Assembly (NCBI GenBank): GCA_025056835.1
Contig: JANWVS010000028.1
Coordinates: 1 to 10,708 of the forward strand
DNA: 10,708 nucleotides
Source: Gemmataceae bacterium
Lineage (GTDB): Bacteria > Planctomycetota > Planctomycetia > Gemmatales > Gemmataceae
Direction: 5' to 3'
Both the position numbers and the translations under genes were made by a program. Below, piece by piece: positions 629-8,991 of the stretch (the first letter of the stretch is position 1; every line of letters begins with the position of its first letter). The notes beneath the pieces were generated by a model. That model saw only the letters and a list, made by a program, of their open reading frames with translations. It was not told the origin of the DNA and did not search any database.

Positions 629-3175
629 TCACTTGACACGCACGATAAAAGTACGGCGGACCGTTGCCGAACCATCGCTGACTTCGGCTTCCAGCATCAG
701 CACACCCACGAATTTTGCCGGCGGCACAATGGTCAACCGATTGCCGACGATTTTGATTTCCGCTACCGGCGGCGTTTCCGGCTTCGCGTTCCATAAAAGC
801 TCTGGACGAGCGTAATAGGAGGCGTCCAATTTGGCCACGAGATTGGTCGTGCTCATCGTTTCGGCACGGGTGGCACCGCGGCGACGTACTTCGCCGTTGG
901 GAAGGATGCAGTACCAATTCGCGTCGTAGCCGGCTTCGCTGCCGCTAAGCAGCCATTTTTCTTTGAGGCCCTGGAAATTCTGAAAATACGAGCCGGCGTA
1001 ATTCAAGTCCAAGCGTTGATCCAGTTCGTAGGCCTTGGCATTGGCGGGTAAGACCCGGGCGGAGTAAGTCAGCGGATCGCCGTTCGGATCGAAGGCCTTG
1101 AGAGTGATGGTCGCCTGTTGCCCGCGCTTAAGGGTCACGTCGCCGATCGGACCAAGTGTCGGTGCGGCATTTTCGATGGTGACGATAAATGAAGTCGTGG
1201 CGACATTGACCCCGTCTGAGGCGGCAACTTCGACTTGAAACGATCCGCGGGCGTTGGACGACGGCTTAATTGTGAGCCGATTGTCTTGAAGCGCGAGGCC
1301 GACGGCCGGCGCCTGGCTGTTGCTGATGGCGACTACGGTAGCGCTATAGCTCACCAGCGAACCTTCGGGGTCAACGGCGTGCAAAATGACAACGCGTTGT
1401 CCCTCCGACGGTTTCATTGTTTGATCGCTGATGGGCGTCCAAACCGGTGGTCGATTGCCGACGATCACTTCGAAAGTCCGCGTCGCCGTCGCCACGCCGT
1501 CGCAAACGGTCACGGCAACTTGGAACGTTCCCGCGAAGTTCGGCGCGGGGATGATCGTGAGGACGTTGCCTTCGAGCACGAGTCGCGCGGGCGGCGGCGC
1601 CGCCGGCTGAGCATTCCACAATTGGCTCGGTTCCGCATAAACGGAGGGGGCCAAGGTAGCGATTAAATTGTCGGGGTTGAGGGAGGTATTCATGGTCCCT
1701 GCCCAGCGTCGGAGCTGTCCGTTGGGCAGCAGACAGTACCAAGTGCCGTTCTGACTGCCGAGCCACTTTTCTTGGGCACCCCAGGCATTGAAATAGTAAT
1801 CGCCGAGATACCGTAGGCCGAGTTGCTCACGGAGTTGGTACAGTTGCGAATTTACACTGGTGACGAGGTGCGCCGCATAGGTCAAGGAGCGCCCTTGCGG
1901 AGGGATCGCTTGGAGCACGACGACGGCGCTGCCGCCCAAGGGAATCGACTGATCGGCAATCGGTGCCAAGGAAGGACGAACCAGGCCATTTTGGCCGACG
2001 ATGCTGCACAAGGCCGCATAAACATCGACGCGCTTGAACGACAAGCCGGTGTTGACGACGTTGTCATCTTCGTCATCGCCGTCGACAATGGTCATACCGC
2101 TGGCTTGTAAGGTGTTGAGAACCGCATCGACGCCGACCGGCAAACCGCGCTCGAGCAGTGCTTCGCGCACCAGGGCAGCGGCACCGGCCACAACCGGCGC
2201 TGCCATCGACGTGCCTGCCATGACCCGGTAACCGCCGTGCAGATACGTGCTCGTGATCATGCCACCGGGAGCGAGCAAACTCAAACCGGCGCTGCGTTGG
2301 CTGAAACTGGCGATGCGGTCCGGTCCCGTACTAAAATCGCGGGCGCCCGACATCCAACTGACCTGCCCCACGTCCTTGGCCCACACCGCGCCGACGGACA
2401 CGACGTCGGCACTAACCGCGGGGTATGAAAGGCCCGGTCGGCCACCGAAGGTGAAGAAGCTATTGCCCGCTGCCGCCGTCACAAGCACATCGCGATTGCG
2501 GAGAGCCGCCAGTTCATCGTCGAGGTAAGTAAACGGATTGGTCGTGTAATTGCCGCTGCCGAGTGAGAGATTGACGGCTACGATGTTGTACTGGGCCTGG
2601 TGCTGGATTACCCATTGCAAGGCGCGTTCAACGTCGCCGAACGAACCGCTGCCGGTGGCATCGAGCACTTTAAGGGCGATCAAGTTGGCTTCCGGCGCCA
2701 CACCGGAATGACTCGTACTCGAACCGGCGATAATCCCGGCGACGTGGGTTCCATGGCCGTCGTCGTCCATCGGATCGGCATCCTGGTTGACAAAATCGTA
2801 GCCGGCGACGACCCGCCTGCCCCAGCCGCCACCGAGATCGGGATGGTTGTAGTCGATGCCTGTGTCGATGACGGCGATGCTCGCTCCTCGGCCGCGATAA
2901 GCAAAATCGGCGAAGGCACGATCTAGGCCAATCAGCGAGCCGAAGCTTTGGTTGACCGTCTGGGGGACTGGACTGGCCTGGACCGAGGCATTGGCCAAGG
3001 GCACATCATCCACCGAAAAGCGTTGCTGTTGCCACTGTTCGTAGCTCAGCGTCGAAGGAGTCAGGCGATCTTCGAGGAGTTCGACTTGCAGCGTCGCCTG
3101 GGTTTTCTTGGCTTTTGTTTGGGCGCGCCCCGCAGCCGGGAGGATTCTCCCGTGCGGCCACCACTGAGAGAACAT
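629..3175 (-). CDS. Surface-type S8 subtilisin-like serine protease with LEDRLTPS motif and three cadherin/Ig-like repeats
   Basis: An 848-residue protease predicted to act outside the cytoplasm. Catalytic residues are visible: Asp104 (AVIDTGID), His141 (DGHGTHVAG), Ser323 (GTSMAAP) and oxyanion Asn238 (AAAGNS); the peptidase domain spans about 92-390. The N-terminus lacks an ordinary Sec signal but has LEDRLTPS at 34-41, a planctomycete N-terminal motif resembling LEPR-type domains. Only about 50 residues separate it from the catalytic domain, so no full I9 propeptide is evident. From about 400 to the end are three cadherin/Ig-like repeats (...L.YSA...LTI.P...G.F.V.V..SDG...TF.V.V). The first and third carry a nested module of about 80 residues. 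The start at 3175 is chosen over the upstream in-frame ATG at 3490: AAGGA lies eight bases before it, the LEDRLTPS distance is right, and a c-di-GMP riboswitch fills the space just upstream. The substrate is unknown. Confidence 0.92.
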   Translation of the reverse strand: MFSQWWPHGRILPAAGRAQTKAKKTQATLQVELLEDRLTPSTLSYEQWQQQRFSVDDVPLANASVQASPVPQTVNQSFGSLIGLDRAFADFAYRGRGASIAVIDTGIDYNHPDLGGGWGRRVVAGYDFVNQDADPMDDDGHGTHVAGIIAGSSTSHSGVAPEANLIALKVLDATGSGSFGDVERALQWVIQHQAQYNIVAVNLSLGSGNYTTNPFTYLDDELAALRNRDVLVTAAAGNSFFTFGGRPGLSYPAVSADVVSVGAVWAKDVGQVSWMSGARDFSTGPDRIASFSQRSAGLSLLAPGGMITSTYLHGGYRVMAGTSMAAPVVAGAAALVREALLERGLPVGVDAVLNTLQASGMTIVDGDDEDDNVVNTGLSFKRVDVYAALCSIVGQNGLVRPSLAPIADQSIPLGGSAVVVLQAIPPQGRSLTYAAHLVTSVNSQLYQLREQLGLRYLGDYYFNAWGAQEKWLGSQNGTWYCLLPNGQLRRWAGTMNTSLNPDNLIATLAPSVYAEPSQLWNAQPAAPPPARLVLEGNVLTIIPAPNFAGTFQVAVTVCDGVATATRTFEVIVGNRPPVWTPISDQTMKPSEGQRVVILHAVDPEGSLVSYSATVVAISNSQAPAVGLALQDNRLTIKPSSNARGSFQVEVAASDGVNVATTSFIVTIENAAPTLGPIGDVTLKRGQQATITLKAFDPNGDPLTYSARVLPANAKAYELDQRLDLNYAGSYFQNFQGLKEKWLLSGSEAGYDANWYCILPNGEVRRRGATRAETMSTTNLVAKLDASYYARPELLWNAKPETPPVAEIKIVGNRLTIVPPAKFVGVLMLEAEVSDGSATVRRTFIVRVK
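785..1039 (-). repeat. Copy 2 of the EKWL/WYC-LPNG module in the subtilase (residues 713-797)
   Basis: This segment encodes YELDQRLDL, GSYF.NF.GLKEKWL, NWYCILPNGEVRR, NLVAKLDASYYARPELLWNA in order. It aligns along its length with residues 442-522 (copy 1). It interrupts the third cadherin-like repeat between its LTYSA strand and its NRLTIVP strand. It is a protein-level repeat; DNA identity is only moderate. Confidence 0.8.
1610..1852 (-). repeat. Copy 1 of the EKWL/WYC-LPNG module in the subtilase (residues 442-522)
   Basis: This segment encodes YQLREQLGL, GDYYFNAWGAQEKWL, TWYCLLPNGQLRRW, NLIATLAPSVYAEPSQLWNA. It is the partner of the module at residues 713-797 and is inserted at the equivalent place in the first cadherin-like repeat. 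Repeat 2 (about 570-668) has no such insertion. Confidence 0.8.
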
Positions 3176-3179
3176 CTCG

Positions 3180-3290
3180 TGATTCCTTCGGTAACCTGGC
3201 AACCACCAGTCGCGTGGCTGGGAAAGCGCCCCTGTTGGCCCATGGCTTTGCGTCCCCACGTCGCCGTGGGTTTGCCGTTGTCGGGAATCA
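3180..3290 (-). ncRNA. Cyclic-di-GMP-I (GEMM-I) riboswitch controlling the subtilase
   Basis: Read on the minus strand, the three conserved blocks of the GEMM-I aptamer occur in order: GGCAAACC (3276-3269), GGGACGCAAAGCC (3256-3244) and GGTTACCG (3196-3189). Between the first two, CACG-GCGA-CGTG makes the P2 hairpin with a GNRA tetraloop. GGC/GCC closes P2. A third stem can be drawn using CAG/CTG (3234-3232 with 3209-3207) and TGG/CCA (3242-3240 with 3199-3197). The outer P1 stem is TGATTCC (3290-3284) with GGAATCA (3186-3180). Its 3' strand overlaps the AAGGA Shine-Dalgarno of the subtilase, whose ATG is at 3175. Known GEMM-I aptamers bind c-di-GMP and stabilise P1, so this arrangement predicts translational repression by the ligand. 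The class assignment is strong; the direction of control is inferred. A homology search with the Rfam GEMM model would be decisive. Confidence 0.9.
3184..3188 (-). promoter_or_regulatory. Ribosome binding site of the subtilase, embedded in riboswitch P1
   Basis: AAGGA lies eight bases upstream of the ATG at 3175-3173 and decides the start. Its GGA is part of the GGAATCA strand that pairs with TGATTCC at 3290-3284, so the site is accessible only when P1 is open. Confidence 0.75.
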
Positions 3291-3312
3291 GCGTTGTACC
3301 GATTCTGCGTCA

Positions 3313-3341
3313 AGCATAGGCTACGCGCACAACGCAGGCAA
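3313..3341 (-). promoter_or_regulatory. Candidate promoter for the riboswitch-subtilase transcript
   Basis: TTGCCT (3341-3336), a 17-base spacer and TATGCT (3318-3313) resemble a sigma-70 promoter (4/6 at each box). Transcription would start near 3306, about 16 bases before the riboswitch P1 stem, which is the position expected for a riboswitch leader. The sequence match alone is modest; the position adds support. Confidence 0.4.
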
Positions 3342-3554
3342 ACGCTAGGCTCGATACAAAACTCACGCGCGGTAAACTTCGACTGACTCCCTAGCTCCGT
3401 CGAGACAAACCGGTCATTGACGAACTTGTCGCGTCCCAGCCTGCTGACCGGCGGGCGAATGGCGCAGACACAGTGTCGCGTCGTCCGCACTATTGTATAG
3501 ACGTGCTAATGTGTCCACTTGCGCAGAGGAACAGAATAGCTCTCGCGATGCGAG

Positions 3555-3587
3555 GCAAAGAAAAGTGACTCGCAAAGAAAAGTGACT
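3555..3587. repeat. Two tandem copies of a 16-base unit with 17-base period
   Basis: GCAAAGAAAAGTGACT occurs at 3555-3570 and again, unchanged, at 3572-3587, one base apart. It lies downstream of the HtrA-like stop codon (minus strand) in non-coding sequence. On the minus strand the unit is T-rich (ACTTTTCTTTGC). Confidence 0.85.
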
Positions 3588-3613
3588 GACGTGTTGGGTG
3601 GAGACAAAAAAGG

Positions 3614-4741
3614 CTACTCGGCTTTTTGCCGCCGGGCTGCACTGGCCCAATCGGCCACGGTGGCTTCGACCGTGATCGTGGACCGGTCGCGCCAGAGCTG
3701 CAAGCGGATGCGTTGACCAGGGGGAAGGTTACTGATCAAGTTGATGAGATGGTGTTCATTGCGGATGGTGATCCCCTCCACGGCCAAGATGACGTCATTG
3801 CCGCGCAATCCCGCAGCGGCAGCCGGGGTGTCTGGGTAAACGCGCTCGACCAGCGCACCTTGCACGCGATCAAGGCCAAGTTTGGCGGCATCATGGGCGT
3901 CAAACCCCGGCGACAGCTGCAAGCCGAGGTAACCGCGCTGCACCGCTCCTTGGTTAAGCAGCTGATTCATGACGCGCTTGACGAGATTGATGGGAATGCT
4001 GAAAGCGACGCCGCTGTTGCTGCCATTGTGAGACGCGATGGCAGTGTTGATGCCGATGACGTCGCCGTTTAAGTCAACCAAGGGGCCACCGCTCGAGCCG
4101 GGATTGATGGCGGCGTCGGTCTGGAGGAATTCCTTGATGCGGATGGCGCTTCCGAGACTCACCTGGCCGCGATCGCGGGCGCTGATGATGCCATGCGTCA
4201 CCGACTGGTTGAGTCCGAAGGGGCTTCCGATCGCCAGGACCCACCGGCCGACCTTGGCGTGATCGCTGTTGCCCAAGCTGGCGGTCGGCAGTTTGTCGAC
4301 ATTGTCCAAAATCAGCAAAGCGATGTCGGTTTCCGGATCGGCCAAAACCTGGGACGGTCGCAAAATGCGGTTGTCGGCGGCGTGAATTGTGATTTGCTGC
4401 GGTGGAGCTTGACCGACCACATGGTAGTTAGTGATGACGACGTAGCCCGGGCGGTTTTCGACGCGAATGATGACGCCGGAACCTGCTTCCTCGACCGGTT
4501 TGCCCTTTGGGCCCGAGCCGGTGCCCGCTGGTTTCAGCGCTTCGACAGCGACCACTGCCGGTACCACACGGCTGGCCACTGCTTCAAATCGCTCGCTCAA
4601 GGCGAACAGCGGATCGCCGACCGCCGTCCCCTGCGGTTGGGCACTGACGGAACCTCCAAACCGCACCGGTCCACGCCAAATCGCGGAGCCGAACAACAGC
4701 AGGACCAAGCCAACGCCGAACGAGACCGCGAAACGTTTCAT
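3614..4741 (-). CDS. HtrA/Deg-type periplasmic serine protease with one PDZ domain
   Basis: A 375-residue protein. Residues 1-34 form an export signal or membrane anchor (MKRF, hydrophobic 8-22, possible cleavage after VSA at 34). The trypsin-like domain (about 45-255) has the catalytic triad His107 (TNYHVVG), Asp139 (DPETDIALL) and Ser217 (NPGSSGGPL). The motif before the serine is GSSGG rather than the common GNSGG. One PDZ domain (about 264-355) carries the YLGLQL carboxylate-binding-loop-like segment and AGLRGNDVILAV. The family degrades or processes misfolded envelope proteins; single-PDZ members resemble DegS-type architectures, but this protein has no evidence of being the regulatory DegS. 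The start at 4741 is preferred over 4891 because of the signal peptide and the AGGGA about ten bases upstream. It is downstream of the DksA-type gene and that gene's terminator, so it is probably transcribed on its own. Confidence 0.92.
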   Translation of the reverse strand: MKRFAVSFGVGLVLLLFGSAIWRGPVRFGGSVSAQPQGTAVGDPLFALSERFEAVASRVVPAVVAVEALKPAGTGSGPKGKPVEEAGSGVIIRVENRPGYVVITNYHVVGQAPPQQITIHAADNRILRPSQVLADPETDIALLILDNVDKLPTASLGNSDHAKVGRWVLAIGSPFGLNQSVTHGIISARDRGQVSLGSAIRIKEFLQTDAAINPGSSGGPLVDLNGDVIGINTAIASHNGSNSGVAFSIPINLVKRVMNQLLNQGAVQRGYLGLQLSPGFDAHDAAKLGLDRVQGALVERVYPDTPAAAAGLRGNDVILAVEGITIRNEHHLINLISNLPPGQRIRLQLWRDRSTITVEATVADWASAARRQKAE

Positions 4742-5359: not shown

Positions 5360-5877
5360 GGCTCACCACCTTTCCCTTTTGCGTAAAACTCCGCTGGGGA
5401 TTCCCATTCATCCGGACTCATTAGCAATTGTCGTGCCGTTTCCCATAAAAACTCACTAAGCTCACCAATTTCCTAACCGCCGATTCATAGGACTGTTGCA
5501 CAATCGCCAAACCGCGCCGACGGTTACCCGGCGCTATCCTTCGCCCCCATAACTGCCCATTTCGGCTGCCACTGTATCAGAATCGTACAGTTGACTAGCT
5601 CGTCGGCAATTATACCTGACGGATATGGCTTGCGTCGGAGCTGCCGGGCCAAAACTTGAAAATCGTTTGCCTCTTTGGCCAACCCTCCGTAGATTCCACC
5701 GCTTCTCACGGCCTTTTCGGCACGACCATATTTCCTTGCGACTTAGCACAAGTCGAGCCATGCCGCAAGGTTACATCGTCGGCCGACTTGCGGTTGACGC
5801 CCCGTGGTCCGTTTGCCATCATTCGCGGCCCACGACTCGGCGGCGAAACGCACCAGGGCTCGTACCTACGACGACGC
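5360..5877. other. 518-base divergent intergenic spacer
   Basis: This lies between the DksA-type gene (minus) and the metallopeptidase (plus). It should hold promoters for both, but I see no convincing -35/-10 pair. TTGACT (5591-5596) and TATACC (5611-5616) are only 14 bases apart. A 6-bp hairpin GCGCCG/CGGCGC lies at 5514-5534. Open frames within it, including the in-frame upstream extension of the metallopeptidase to 5656, lack protein character. I see nothing else in it. Confidence 0.6.
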
Positions 5878-8800
5878 ATGAGCCAAGTTCGTTTGATCTT
5901 GCTTCTGCTGAGCGCAGTGATCTTATGCGCCACGATCGTCCCGCGCGCTGACGCTCATGGTCAAGACAAAACAGAGGACCGTTCTTCGAAAAAGCCTGAG
6001 ACGTTGCCGCCGCCGCACAGATTGGTTCAGCCGCCCGCTTGGCTGCCGCGCTACGACTTGCTACTCCACCTTGACACGCGTGATCGGCGAGTAACGGCCA
6101 CGGCGACGGTAACCTGGACGAATCGCCACGCTCGTCCCACTGGGGAACTGATTTTCCACGCTCATGGCCGGTACACGATTCCAAACCATGAGGTGGGCCT
6201 GGTGGCCAAGACCGTGGAACTCTTGAGGATCGCTCCCAAGGAAGCGCTGAACTTTGATGGACCAGCTTTGGACGTCAAAAAAGTTTATCTTGGCGCCCCC
6301 CCCTTGGCCGAAGGCTCACAGTCTCTTGACTTCACCTATCCCAACGACAACCCCACGTCTCTGGTTGTTGCCTTGCCCAAGCCTGTGGGCCGAGCCGAAT
6401 CAGTCACAGTCACCCTAGAGTTTACGTTCAAAATCCCGCCCAAGAAAGGTCGTTGGGGCCAATGGAACGAGATCACCACCTTGGCCCAATGGCTGCCCGT
6501 GTTGGCGGTTTACGACGAAAGCGGTTGGCACGCCACGCCGTTTATTCCCTGGCATCAGCCGTTCTACAACGAGGCCGGCATTTATTCCGCCAAGATCACG
6601 TTGCCGACCGAATGTAAACTCGCTTGCTCCGGCAAGGTGATTAAGACCACCGATCTCGGTAATGGTTACAGTTGCCATGAAACCGCCTCAACGCCGCTGC
6701 GCGACTTTTCGATCGTGGTCTCGCCGTGTTTCGAGGAAACGACCGGACGCGCGGGACGAGTCACGGTCCGATGCCTGCACTTGCCGCAGCACGCCCATTA
6801 CGCCCGCGAATTGGTTGCTACCGCCGTGGACGCCCTGCCCGTTTATGAAAAATGGTTCGGCCCTTACCCCTATGAACAGTTCACGATCGCCGAGGCCTAC
6901 TTGGGTTGGAACGGCAACGAATGCGGCGGCATGGTGCTGATCGACGATCGCATGTTCAATATGCCGCACATCGCTCGCGGTTATCCCACGTACCTGGTCG
7001 CTCACGAATTGTGTCATCAATGGTGGTACAACATCATCGGCACCAACGGCTACTGCGAAACGTGGATGGACGAAGGTCCGGCAACGTACTTCAGCCATCG
7101 CTTCGCTGACGACCGTTTCGGTCGCAATAACGAATTCATAAAGTACCCTGCCTGGGCAGCATGGCTGCCCAACATTCGCCGCGAGGATTTTCGCAATGTC
7201 GGCTTCATCGGCTGTCGGGCGCGCGGCGAAGTGCTGCCCACGATCCAAGAACTGCCCAAGTATGGCCACCTCTTCAATCTCACCGCCGCCACGTACGATC
7301 GCGGCAGTAAAGTCATCGGCATGATTGAGGAACGCTTGGGGGAGACGGCGTTGTTCGATTTCCTCCGGCTTGTTTACCGCAAGTACGCGTTCCAAATCCT
7401 CCGCGTTGCCGACTTTCAACGCGAGTTGGAAGACTACACCGGCACGTCGTGGGACGACTTTTTCGCGCATTGGGTCCGAGGCCCAGGCATGTGCGATTGG
7501 GCCATCGAGCGCGTCGAAATCGATGGCTATCGCCGGCCCGCGCCTTGGCGCCGGCGAGGTACTCGGCCGGTGCGCGTCGTCATCGACCTGCAACAGCGCG
7601 GTGAGTTCAACGAACCGACGTATCTCGGCATTCGGACCATGCCGGGCGACGGTTATCAGATCTACCTTCCCATTCAACCCGAGGTAGCCACACTATCGCT
7701 CGACCAGCCCAACGCTCGAATCACATCGCGCATTCTTCCCGGTGCCAAACCGGAGCAAGGCCGGGCGTGCGTGCGCGTTGAAGTCGACCTGCCGTGCGAA
7801 CCGCTGCAAATCGCCATCGACCCGGATCGCGTGCTCCTGGATGCTGACCTGGCGAACAATCGCTGGCGGCCCGAGGCACGCGTGCGCTTGACGCCGCTGT
7901 ACACGATGCTCGACGAAGTTGAAATCGTCAACGCATACGACCGCTGGAACTTCATCGCCGGCCCCTGGGCGAACCTGTCGACCTATAACGACCCGTGGTT
8001 CAATCGCTCGCCACTGGCCGGTATTCGCATCGGCGCGGTGCGCCTTCAGGAATTCAAGGGCGGGGCCTTCCTCGCCTACCGTACCGACGATCGCAATATC
8101 ATCGCCGGGGCCGACGGCTTGTGGGAGCACATTCCCTTTCCGAAGGCGCAGGTCGGTTTCCTGATCGAGAAGAGTCTTGTCACGGTCAGCGACGACGATT
8201 TTTCGGCCACGCGCGGCGTGGTCTTCGGCCGATATGTCATGATGTACGGCAGCTCGCTCTACTTACCGCCGTTTGAGTACGTCGAGGTGTTTGGCAGCAT
8301 GCAGAACCGCTGCTTGCCGGAACCGCGGCAAGCGCCGTCTGATGCGTTGCCTTTCGATCGCCGCAATCTCCTGGGCGTGCATTACCACAAGTATTTGTTG
8401 ACGCCTTATTGGGACCCCGAAGGCGGCGCGGCGTTGGACGTCGCCTACGGCTACGGATTTCCGGTCCAGGGCAACCCGGCGTTTCATCAGTTCGTTGCTC
8501 AAGCGTCGACGGTCGTGAGTTTTCCCGAGATGCTCGCCCCCGGATTCGGCCCGGTGGCCGATTGGTTGCGGGCCACGCGCTTTGCCTTACGCTTGGGGGG
8601 GGCCTGGGCGTCGCAGCCCGCCGGACTGTTTTTCACGTTAGGGGGCGGCGACCATTTCCGCGGCTTTGACCTCAGCGAACGCCAAGGCAGTATCACCTGG
8701 TTCGGCAGCATCGAGTGGCGGATTCCCGTCGCACGGCAGGTCTGCTGGGACTTCGTCGATCATATTGCCGGCGTCCGCAATGTTTACCTGGCGCCGTTCT

Positions 8801-8991
8801 GGGATGTCGGGGATGCCTGGGTCAACGGCCGATCGCAAGGCGAGGTCGCCCATGCCTTCGGCGTGGGGCTGCGGATTGATGTGACTTGGCTAGGGCTGAT
8901 CGAACGCACCATGCTGCGCGTCGACGTGGCGAAGACCATCAACGTGTCGGCACCGTGGCAAGTCTGGTTCGGGATCACGCATCCGTTCTGA
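5878..8991 (+). CDS. M1-type zinc metallopeptidase fused to an Omp85/D15-like outer-membrane beta-barrel
   Basis: A 1037-residue exported protein. Residues 1-27 are a signal peptide (SQVR, hydrophobic core, ending near ADAHG). Residues 45-300 fit the beta-rich M1 N-terminal domain. The catalytic domain (about 305-545) has the zinc motif HELCH (His376, Glu377, His380), the third ligand Glu399 at exactly X18, and probable catalytic Tyr473 in TYDRGSKVIGMIEERLG. The GxMEN exopeptidase motif reads GGMVL (350-354), losing the glutamate that binds the substrate amino terminus. From about 700 to the end it resembles Omp85/D15 barrels: LGGGDHFRGF (921-930, the RGF/Y lid motif), LAPFWDVGDAW (971-981), glycine-rich GVGLRI and a terminal phenylalanine. 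The peptidase is thus probably tethered at the outer membrane. The start is chosen for the signal peptide; no clear Shine-Dalgarno is seen. The next gene follows after 97 bases and may be co-transcribed. Confidence 0.88.
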   Translation: MSQVRLILLLLSAVILCATIVPRADAHGQDKTEDRSSKKPETLPPPHRLVQPPAWLPRYDLLLHLDTRDRRVTATATVTWTNRHARPTGELIFHAHGRYTIPNHEVGLVAKTVELLRIAPKEALNFDGPALDVKKVYLGAPPLAEGSQSLDFTYPNDNPTSLVVALPKPVGRAESVTVTLEFTFKIPPKKGRWGQWNEITTLAQWLPVLAVYDESGWHATPFIPWHQPFYNEAGIYSAKITLPTECKLACSGKVIKTTDLGNGYSCHETASTPLRDFSIVVSPCFEETTGRAGRVTVRCLHLPQHAHYARELVATAVDALPVYEKWFGPYPYEQFTIAEAYLGWNGNECGGMVLIDDRMFNMPHIARGYPTYLVAHELCHQWWYNIIGTNGYCETWMDEGPATYFSHRFADDRFGRNNEFIKYPAWAAWLPNIRREDFRNVGFIGCRARGEVLPTIQELPKYGHLFNLTAATYDRGSKVIGMIEERLGETALFDFLRLVYRKYAFQILRVADFQRELEDYTGTSWDDFFAHWVRGPGMCDWAIERVEIDGYRRPAPWRRRGTRPVRVVIDLQQRGEFNEPTYLGIRTMPGDGYQIYLPIQPEVATLSLDQPNARITSRILPGAKPEQGRACVRVEVDLPCEPLQIAIDPDRVLLDADLANNRWRPEARVRLTPLYTMLDEVEIVNAYDRWNFIAGPWANLSTYNDPWFNRSPLAGIRIGAVRLQEFKGGAFLAYRTDDRNIIAGADGLWEHIPFPKAQVGFLIEKSLVTVSDDDFSATRGVVFGRYVMMYGSSLYLPPFEYVEVFGSMQNRCLPEPRQAPSDALPFDRRNLLGVHYHKYLLTPYWDPEGGAALDVAYGYGFPVQGNPAFHQFVAQASTVVSFPEMLAPGFGPVADWLRATRFALRLGGAWASQPAGLFFTLGGGDHFRGFDLSERQGSITWFGSIEWRIPVARQVCWDFVDHIAGVRNVYLAPFWDVGDAWVNGRSQGEVAHAFGVGLRIDVTWLGLIERTMLRVDVAKTINVSAPWQVWFGITHPF

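Follow-up and report, generated by a model that had tools for sequence, protein, structure and literature searches.

The window, by which we mean the whole 10,708-nucleotide stretch of contig JANWVS010000028.1 from a Gemmataceae bacterium, contains on its minus strand a subtilase gene whose ATG at 3175 lies 10 nt past an RNA aptamer. The first-pass annotation had described this gene as encoding an 848-residue subtilase with cadherin-like repeats, and the Pfam search agreed, returning Peptidase_S8 at an E value of 1.3e-44, which places the protein in the S8 family, together with Big_9 and Cadherin_5. The catalytic residues D, H and S fall in invariant columns of the protein alignment A1, in the motifs DTG, HGTH (HGTN in one orthologue) and GTSMA. 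The Big_9 and Cadherin_5 repeats and the N-terminus suggest that the protease acts outside the cell or at its surface; we take the LEDRLTPS-type N-terminus to point to such a secreted or surface location. The elements of the gene and its leader are as follows.

629 to 3175, minus strand: 848-residue S8 subtilase with D/H/S motifs, an N-terminal LEDRLTPS and Big_9/Cadherin_5 repeats (open reading frame, Pfam, alignment A1).
3180 to 3186, minus strand: GGAATCA, the 3' side of the extended P1, which holds the core of the Shine-Dalgarno sequence; exact complement of TGATTCC.
3186 to 3285, minus strand: aptamer of the c-di-GMP-I (GEMM-I) type with helices P1, P2 and P3 (RF03167 and RF01051 scores).
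3191, minus strand: C at the C92-equivalent (sequence and alignment).
3249, minus strand: A at the A47-equivalent, where the RF03167 consensus has G (cmscan alignment).
3276, minus strand: G at the G20-equivalent, which discriminates c-di-GMP from cGAMP (sequence and alignment; role from the accessible parts of PMC4744006 and PMC6456294).
3284 to 3290, minus strand: TGATTCC, the anti-Shine-Dalgarno strand and 5' side of the extended P1; exact 7-bp complement of 3180 to 3186.
3299 to 3305, minus strand: GAATCGG, which can pair with the anti-Shine-Dalgarno strand in a competing 5' hairpin (minimum free energy folds).
3313 to 3341, minus strand: candidate sigma-70-like promoter TTGCCT-N17-TATGCT (3341-3336 and 3318-3313; read by eye).

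Directly upstream of the subtilase gene, on the same strand (3614-4738), lies another protease gene. Its product is HtrA/Deg-like and has trypsin and PDZ domains, and the Rfam scan detected no aptamer belonging to this gene. On the plus strand (5875-8991), a further gene encodes an M1-type peptidase (Peptidase_M1, 3e-15) with a C-terminal Omp85-like region, whose match to NCBIfam Omp85_fam (2e-6) is far below the cut-off of that model. To our knowledge, this is an unusual combination.

Identity of the aptamer and its ligand pocket

The whole window was scanned with cmscan. The c-di-GMP-I-GGC model RF03167 matched the minus strand at 3285..3186 with 65.7 bits (gathering score 59, E 4.6e-14), and the original GEMM-I model RF01051 matched the same stretch, shifted by one base, with 63.7 bits against a cut-off of 35; the next best Rfam match in the window had an E value of 1. 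The first-pass annotation had claimed a GEMM-I riboswitch here and proposed scoring with the Rfam covariance model, and with both models above their cut-offs this claim is borne out. The motifs that it had named, GGCAAACC, GGGACGCAAAGCC and GGTTACCG, were all found within 3186-3285 of the minus strand, P2 is capped by a GNRA loop (GCGA) as it had described, and all 27 named pairs of the aptamer and its P1 extension are standard.

According to the accessible part of PMC4744006, the contacts of c-di-GMP in the Vc2 riboswitch are G20, A47 and C92. All three are canonical in the window, in keeping with membership of RF01051. RF03167 is the best-scoring model for the window, yet the window has A, not G, at the A47-equivalent. 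The label GGC, which we presume to name bases 20, 47 and 92, does not fit this pocket because the three contact bases are the canonical G20, A47 and C92, and membership in the GGC variant was rejected on account of the A. That the RNA might nevertheless belong to this variant class and bind a ligand other than c-di-GMP is suggested by the advantage of RF03167 over RF01051, which is 2 bits in the window and about 10 bits in the second aptamer copy of the same genome (C30). We regard this as highly improbable, given that the window has A at the A47-equivalent, as do 100 of the 102 aptamers that were examined (C30 among them); of the other two, one has G and one has C. Judged from its sequence, the window RNA appears to be GEMM-I by structure and by pocket, and the GGC label seems to reflect scoring rather than the pocket.

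The sole G20-G47-C92 combination among the 102 aptamers occurs at L118 (G010:C1167, aptamer 7613-7704 of the contig), which precedes a 941-residue LEERLTP-type protein at +454 and is a candidate for a true GGC-type member.

Conservation with the subtilase gene and covariation

RF03167 matched at E 0.001 or better in 40 of 59 genomes, comprising the window's own genome and relatives in its family, order and class. The subtilase alignment A1, built from the first seven proteins (window included; the six others are 48-56% identical to the window subtilase), was searched against 95 genomes of the family and gave a match at E 1e-60 in 14. One of these, G035, matches the repeat part only, which leaves 13 genomes with a full-length subtilase, and the aptamer is present upstream of the gene in all 13, including the six that were outside the initial RF03167 list. 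Thus, a genuine GEMM-I riboswitch lies upstream of the subtilase and is conserved with the gene in one planctomycete family. The best matches in the named collection were four Planctomycetota metagenome-assembled genomes and one labelled Deltaproteobacteria, and three of the former had already been counted (L136 is G026, L139 is G002 and L135 is G099). No Rfam hit was obtained, even at E 1, for the fourth (L138, 46% identity), for the match labelled Deltaproteobacteria (L137, S8 part only) or for the paralogous matches L229 and L235 of G097, and the repeat-region matches L228 and L234 had no aptamer at the gathering score. Because L138 lacks the aptamer and is unplaced in the tree, aptamer loss is possible.

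The check by covariation among orthologous leaders that the first-pass annotation had proposed was carried out on alignment A4, which holds 25 leaders of two gene groups, subtilase and HtrA, and omits one of 26 (G036:C118, with a very long P3 and a contig end). Changes on both sides were found in 12 of 25 pairs, distributed across P1, P2 and P3 as expected of an RF01051 member, compared with 0-5 pairs in controls with slid 3' partners. In total 92.8% of cells pair, against 25-51% after sliding, a comparison that favours the real structure because the window row supplied that structure. None of 500 shuffles reached the covariation score of A4, and the number of further pair types did not exceed that of the shuffles (408 of 500 as high). 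The weakest helix is P1 with its extension, in which 76.6% of cells are paired. Within the 13 subtilase leaders alone, both-side changes were seen in 2 of 25 pairs, none of them in P1. The P1 extension is invariant in this group and therefore provides no covariation evidence of its own there.

The pairing of the flanks was also examined by swapping 5' and 3' flanks between sites, with one HtrA site (G020:C394) omitted. For the 12 HtrA sites together with the window, own flanks paired better on average than exchanged ones (92 of 5000 permutations as good), and own partners were best at none of the 13 sites. With the 12 HtrA sites by themselves the effect was weak (286 of 5000), and the seven subtilase sites showed none (913 of 5000).

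In the window, the mechanical open reading frame of the subtilase is open upstream to a GTG at 3490, a feature that would be in line with a chance resemblance to an aptamer within an N-terminal extension of the protein. This explanation is already contradicted and has next to no probability, in view of the E value of the RF03167 match, the covariation of the aptamer pairs, the 1-nt length steps between orthologous subtilase leaders and the in-frame stops inside the aptamer in 6 of the 13 leaders. Because of these indels and stops, the leader is unlikely to be coding, and a coding extension was rejected on the same grounds.

Turnover of the ligand-reading base 20

Base 20 is G in three of the 13 subtilase leaders (window, G026 and G002), A in six and C in four; for four leaders, the A20 and C20 states can be read directly from the cmscan alignment. 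It is other than G in 10 of the 13 subtilase leaders versus 5 of 116 other aptamers of relatives (95 other sites of the main set and 21 further), a contrast for which Fisher's test gives 3e-9, although this value overstates independence because seven of the 13 leaders come from one genus. Within a single genome, G012, the subtilase leader has A20 and the three other aptamers have G20. On the protein tree, in which 7 of 11 inner branches are unresolved, the three base-20 states take four changes, and C20 alone takes three, forced by well-supported branches.

The accessible texts of earlier studies bear on what such changes may do. An A20G change turns a cGAMP riboswitch of Geobacter to c-di-GMP (PMC6456294), and Vc2 loses affinity by a factor of about 30,000 when G20 is mutated (PMC4744006). 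Across the class I switches, A47 is conserved without exception, G20 and C92 less strictly (PMC9049102). The orthologues may accordingly have changed their ligand, retuned their affinity or decayed. We put forward, as a tentative possibility, that the subtilase riboswitches of this one family have repeatedly changed base 20 and form a natural series in which affinity was retuned or the ligand switched, to cGAMP or another cyclic dinucleotide, against a nearly constant background of gene and remaining aptamer. The surprise is tempered by precedent, namely the lesser conservation of G20 and, in the part of PMC9481103 available, a comparable change in Desulfobacca.

The signal side

One GGDEF gene was detected in the window's own genome, which is 75.7% complete. 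It has, as read by eye, a receiver-like N-terminus. Directly downstream of it comes this genome's second aptamer copy (G000:C30), which in turn precedes an HtrA-like protease gene. The Asn and Asp residues of diguanylate cyclases are retained in the GGDEF protein; their roles were taken from the accessible part of PMC6456294 and mapped here. The same order of GGDEF gene, aptamer and HtrA-like gene is found in G029, where the GGDEF protein is 75% identical, and in G026 the end of a GGDEF match lies some 1 kb upstream on the same strand.

Hypr cGAMP synthases carry Ser where canonical GGDEF proteins have Asp (PMC6456294, in part). Our motif scan covered 30 loci of 43 GGDEF matches in 13 genomes; one locus, L247, gave no motif match, and all 29 readable motifs have the canonical Asp. 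No SMODS match was found in any of the 13 orthologue genomes. No cGAMP synthase to match A20 was found in these incomplete genomes, which speaks for retuning or decay in the orthologues rather than for cGAMP sensing. For the window itself, cGAMP was rejected as the ligand, with base 20 being G and the sole GGDEF protein found being canonical. The cGAMP-sensing GEMM-Ib riboswitches of Geobacter have A20, and this cGAMP-type base is also that of 6 of the 13 orthologous leaders, whereas the G20 of the window sets it apart from GEMM-Ib, as do the canonical GGDEF motifs and the missing SMODS matches.

Expression platform and proposed mechanism

The Shine-Dalgarno sequence AAGGAA (3188-3183) sits at the 3' foot of P1, with 6 nt from GGAAT to the ATG, and its core is part of the P1 extension. 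With the seven extension pairs added, the evaluated energy falls to -27.7 kcal/mol, compared with -19.6 kcal/mol without them. When the window leader was folded alone, requiring the P1 core raised the pairing of the P1 extension from 0.38 to 0.88 and lowered the mean accessibility of the Shine-Dalgarno sequence from 0.28 to 0.10. The ensembles with and without this requirement were 0.7 kcal/mol apart. All 13 orthologues have the five counted extension pairs and the two core P1 pairs, and a strand like GAATCGG was recognized by eye in 11 of the 13 leaders.

On these folding models, the layout of the window leader appears to be that of a translational OFF switch. With moderate confidence, we propose that this RNA belongs to a planctomycete subtype of the c-di-GMP class I (GEMM-I) riboswitches and exerts translational OFF control over the subtilase. 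We infer c-di-GMP as the ligand and OFF as the direction of control. Without ligand, GAATCGG would pair with the anti-Shine-Dalgarno strand TGATTCC and leave the Shine-Dalgarno sequence free. Binding of c-di-GMP at the junction of P1, P2 and P3 would stabilize P1, which would then zip on through TGATTCC:GGAATCA and bury the Shine-Dalgarno core, so that the subtilase would be off at high c-di-GMP.

A scan of 3100-3620 found no terminator-like site, and transcription termination was rejected for this reason. The candidate promoter at 3341-3313 would set the +1 just 5' of the GAATCGG strand; it lies below the threshold of the promoter scan because it matches 8 of 12 consensus letters. The scan itself returned a single promoter-like hit, at 3517-3489 on the minus strand (0.1 expected), and its use would mean a longer leader than is assumed in the model of OFF control. 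An upstream strand (AGCTATGGTT in relatives) that pairs with P3 in folds with more 5' sequence was also considered and rejected, because it coincides with the candidate -10 element and is probably untranscribed.

Some of the folding results count against OFF control. In a longer fold, extended by 40 nt on the 5' side of the aptamer and by 30 nt into the coding sequence, the accessibility of the Shine-Dalgarno sequence hardly changed when the aptamer was enforced (from 0.31 to 0.28), because base pairs with the gene start cover this sequence as well; in the minimum free energy structure of this longer RNA, the Shine-Dalgarno region is paired with the gene start with or without the aptamer. Moreover, when the 13 leaders were folded alone with the P1 core required, the extension formed in four (window, G026, G002 and G003; at least 0.87) and stayed at 0.23 or below in nine, mostly because the 5' hairpin survives. 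Both observations also favour an ON switch built from the same riboswitch and ligand, in which the bound P1 would stay short, the 5' hairpin would persist and the ligand-free RNA would hide the Shine-Dalgarno sequence by pairing it elsewhere, for instance with the first part of the coding region; in the accessible part of PMC4744006, Vc1 of Vibrio is described as an ON switch with no apparent terminator or anti-Shine-Dalgarno strand. We consider an ON switch rather unlikely, in light of the exact 7-bp P1 extension over the Shine-Dalgarno sequence in the window and the presence of the counted P1 pairs in every orthologue.

The distribution of base 20, which is not G in most orthologues, is a further point against OFF control. 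Together with the affinity loss of the Vc2 mutant cited above, it also fits a leader that is losing or relaxing its response to the ligand, a former riboswitch that would now be mainly constitutive or weakly responsive. The window copy keeps G20, and outside base 20 the aptamer is strongly conserved, with a mean column identity of 75% in alignment A3 and an invariant A47 there; we judge such decay to be improbable for this leader. Translational OFF control in response to c-di-GMP remains our preferred reading.

Relation to known systems

The window shares the P1-P2-P3 fold and the G20/A47/C92 pocket with RF01051 and with Vc1 and Vc2 of Vibrio cholerae, and differs from them as a planctomycete subtype with a slightly better RF03167 score, a Shine-Dalgarno core inside the extended P1 and a subtilase as its target. 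A functional likeness is seen with zmpI/PPEP-1 of Clostridioides difficile, where a class I c-di-GMP riboswitch precedes the gene of a secreted protease and c-di-GMP lowers the protease (PMC6366702, accessible part). There, the enzyme is a zinc metalloprotease of a Firmicute in which the functional class I switches work through transcription termination, whereas here a subtilase of Planctomycetota is predicted to be under translational control. In Desulfobacca acetoxidans, clusters of near-identical c-di-GMP-I aptamers include one with a pocket change for c-AMP-GMP (PMC9481103, in the part available); that case concerns one 7-kb region of one genome, whereas the present one concerns orthologous leaders of one gene in different genomes.

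In the literature searched, c-di-GMP riboswitches and planctomycetes occurred together only as an unrelated co-mention, which is no proof of absence, as most subscription papers fall outside that literature. GEMM riboswitch, subtilisin and c-di-GMP were found together only in a Geobacter mutant study, and c-di-GMP-I-GGC only in incidental mentions. As far as this literature goes, the riboswitch is ordinary in kind and new in its place and target. If our reading is right, c-di-GMP would control proteolysis in Planctomycetota through RNA, in parallel with the case of ZmpI in C. difficile. The feature that merits testing is the turnover of the ligand-reading base specific to these orthologues, as it offers a natural series for the evolution of ligand preference or affinity in a riboswitch before one gene.

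Other aptamers in related genomes

For the survey of downstream content, 102 aptamer matches were taken with their flanks from the RF03167 list. Seven precede a subtilase gene, 13 an HtrA-like gene and 28 a Flp-pilin gene (motif search), 15 and 19 are followed by one or the other of two conserved 3' elements, and 20 have other contents. A tblastn match to the G000 copy was obtained for 12 of the 13 HtrA-like genes, the 13th being cut by a contig end, and trypsin-like and PDZ domains were found in all five that were scanned with Pfam.

The 15 sites of the first kind (L048, L049, L051, L052, L057, L058, L062, L064, L066, L068, L070, L074, L081, L122 and L124) carry directly 3' of the aptamer the near-invariant linker GGGATGGACGGGACC, followed by further conserved letters and a hairpin, after which a T-run was seen by eye in 13. 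The open reading frame listing gave no obvious adjoining gene at these sites, which are possibly free-standing c-di-GMP-responsive small RNAs. The 19 sites of the second kind, for example L046, L054, L072, L073, L076, L089 and L102, have another conserved 3' domain, typically GGGATGGAC.GGCGAAGAGCCCGTCCGTCCCC, with a hairpin and further stems. Rfam scans of 10 loci, of which three were of the GGGATGGAC.GGCGAAGAGCCCGTCCGTCCCC type and two of the GGGATGGACGGGACC type, reported the aptamer alone. The 28 aptamers before Flp/Tad pilin genes, as far as the motif search identifies these genes, would fit control of surface attachment by c-di-GMP in the same lineages as the proteases.
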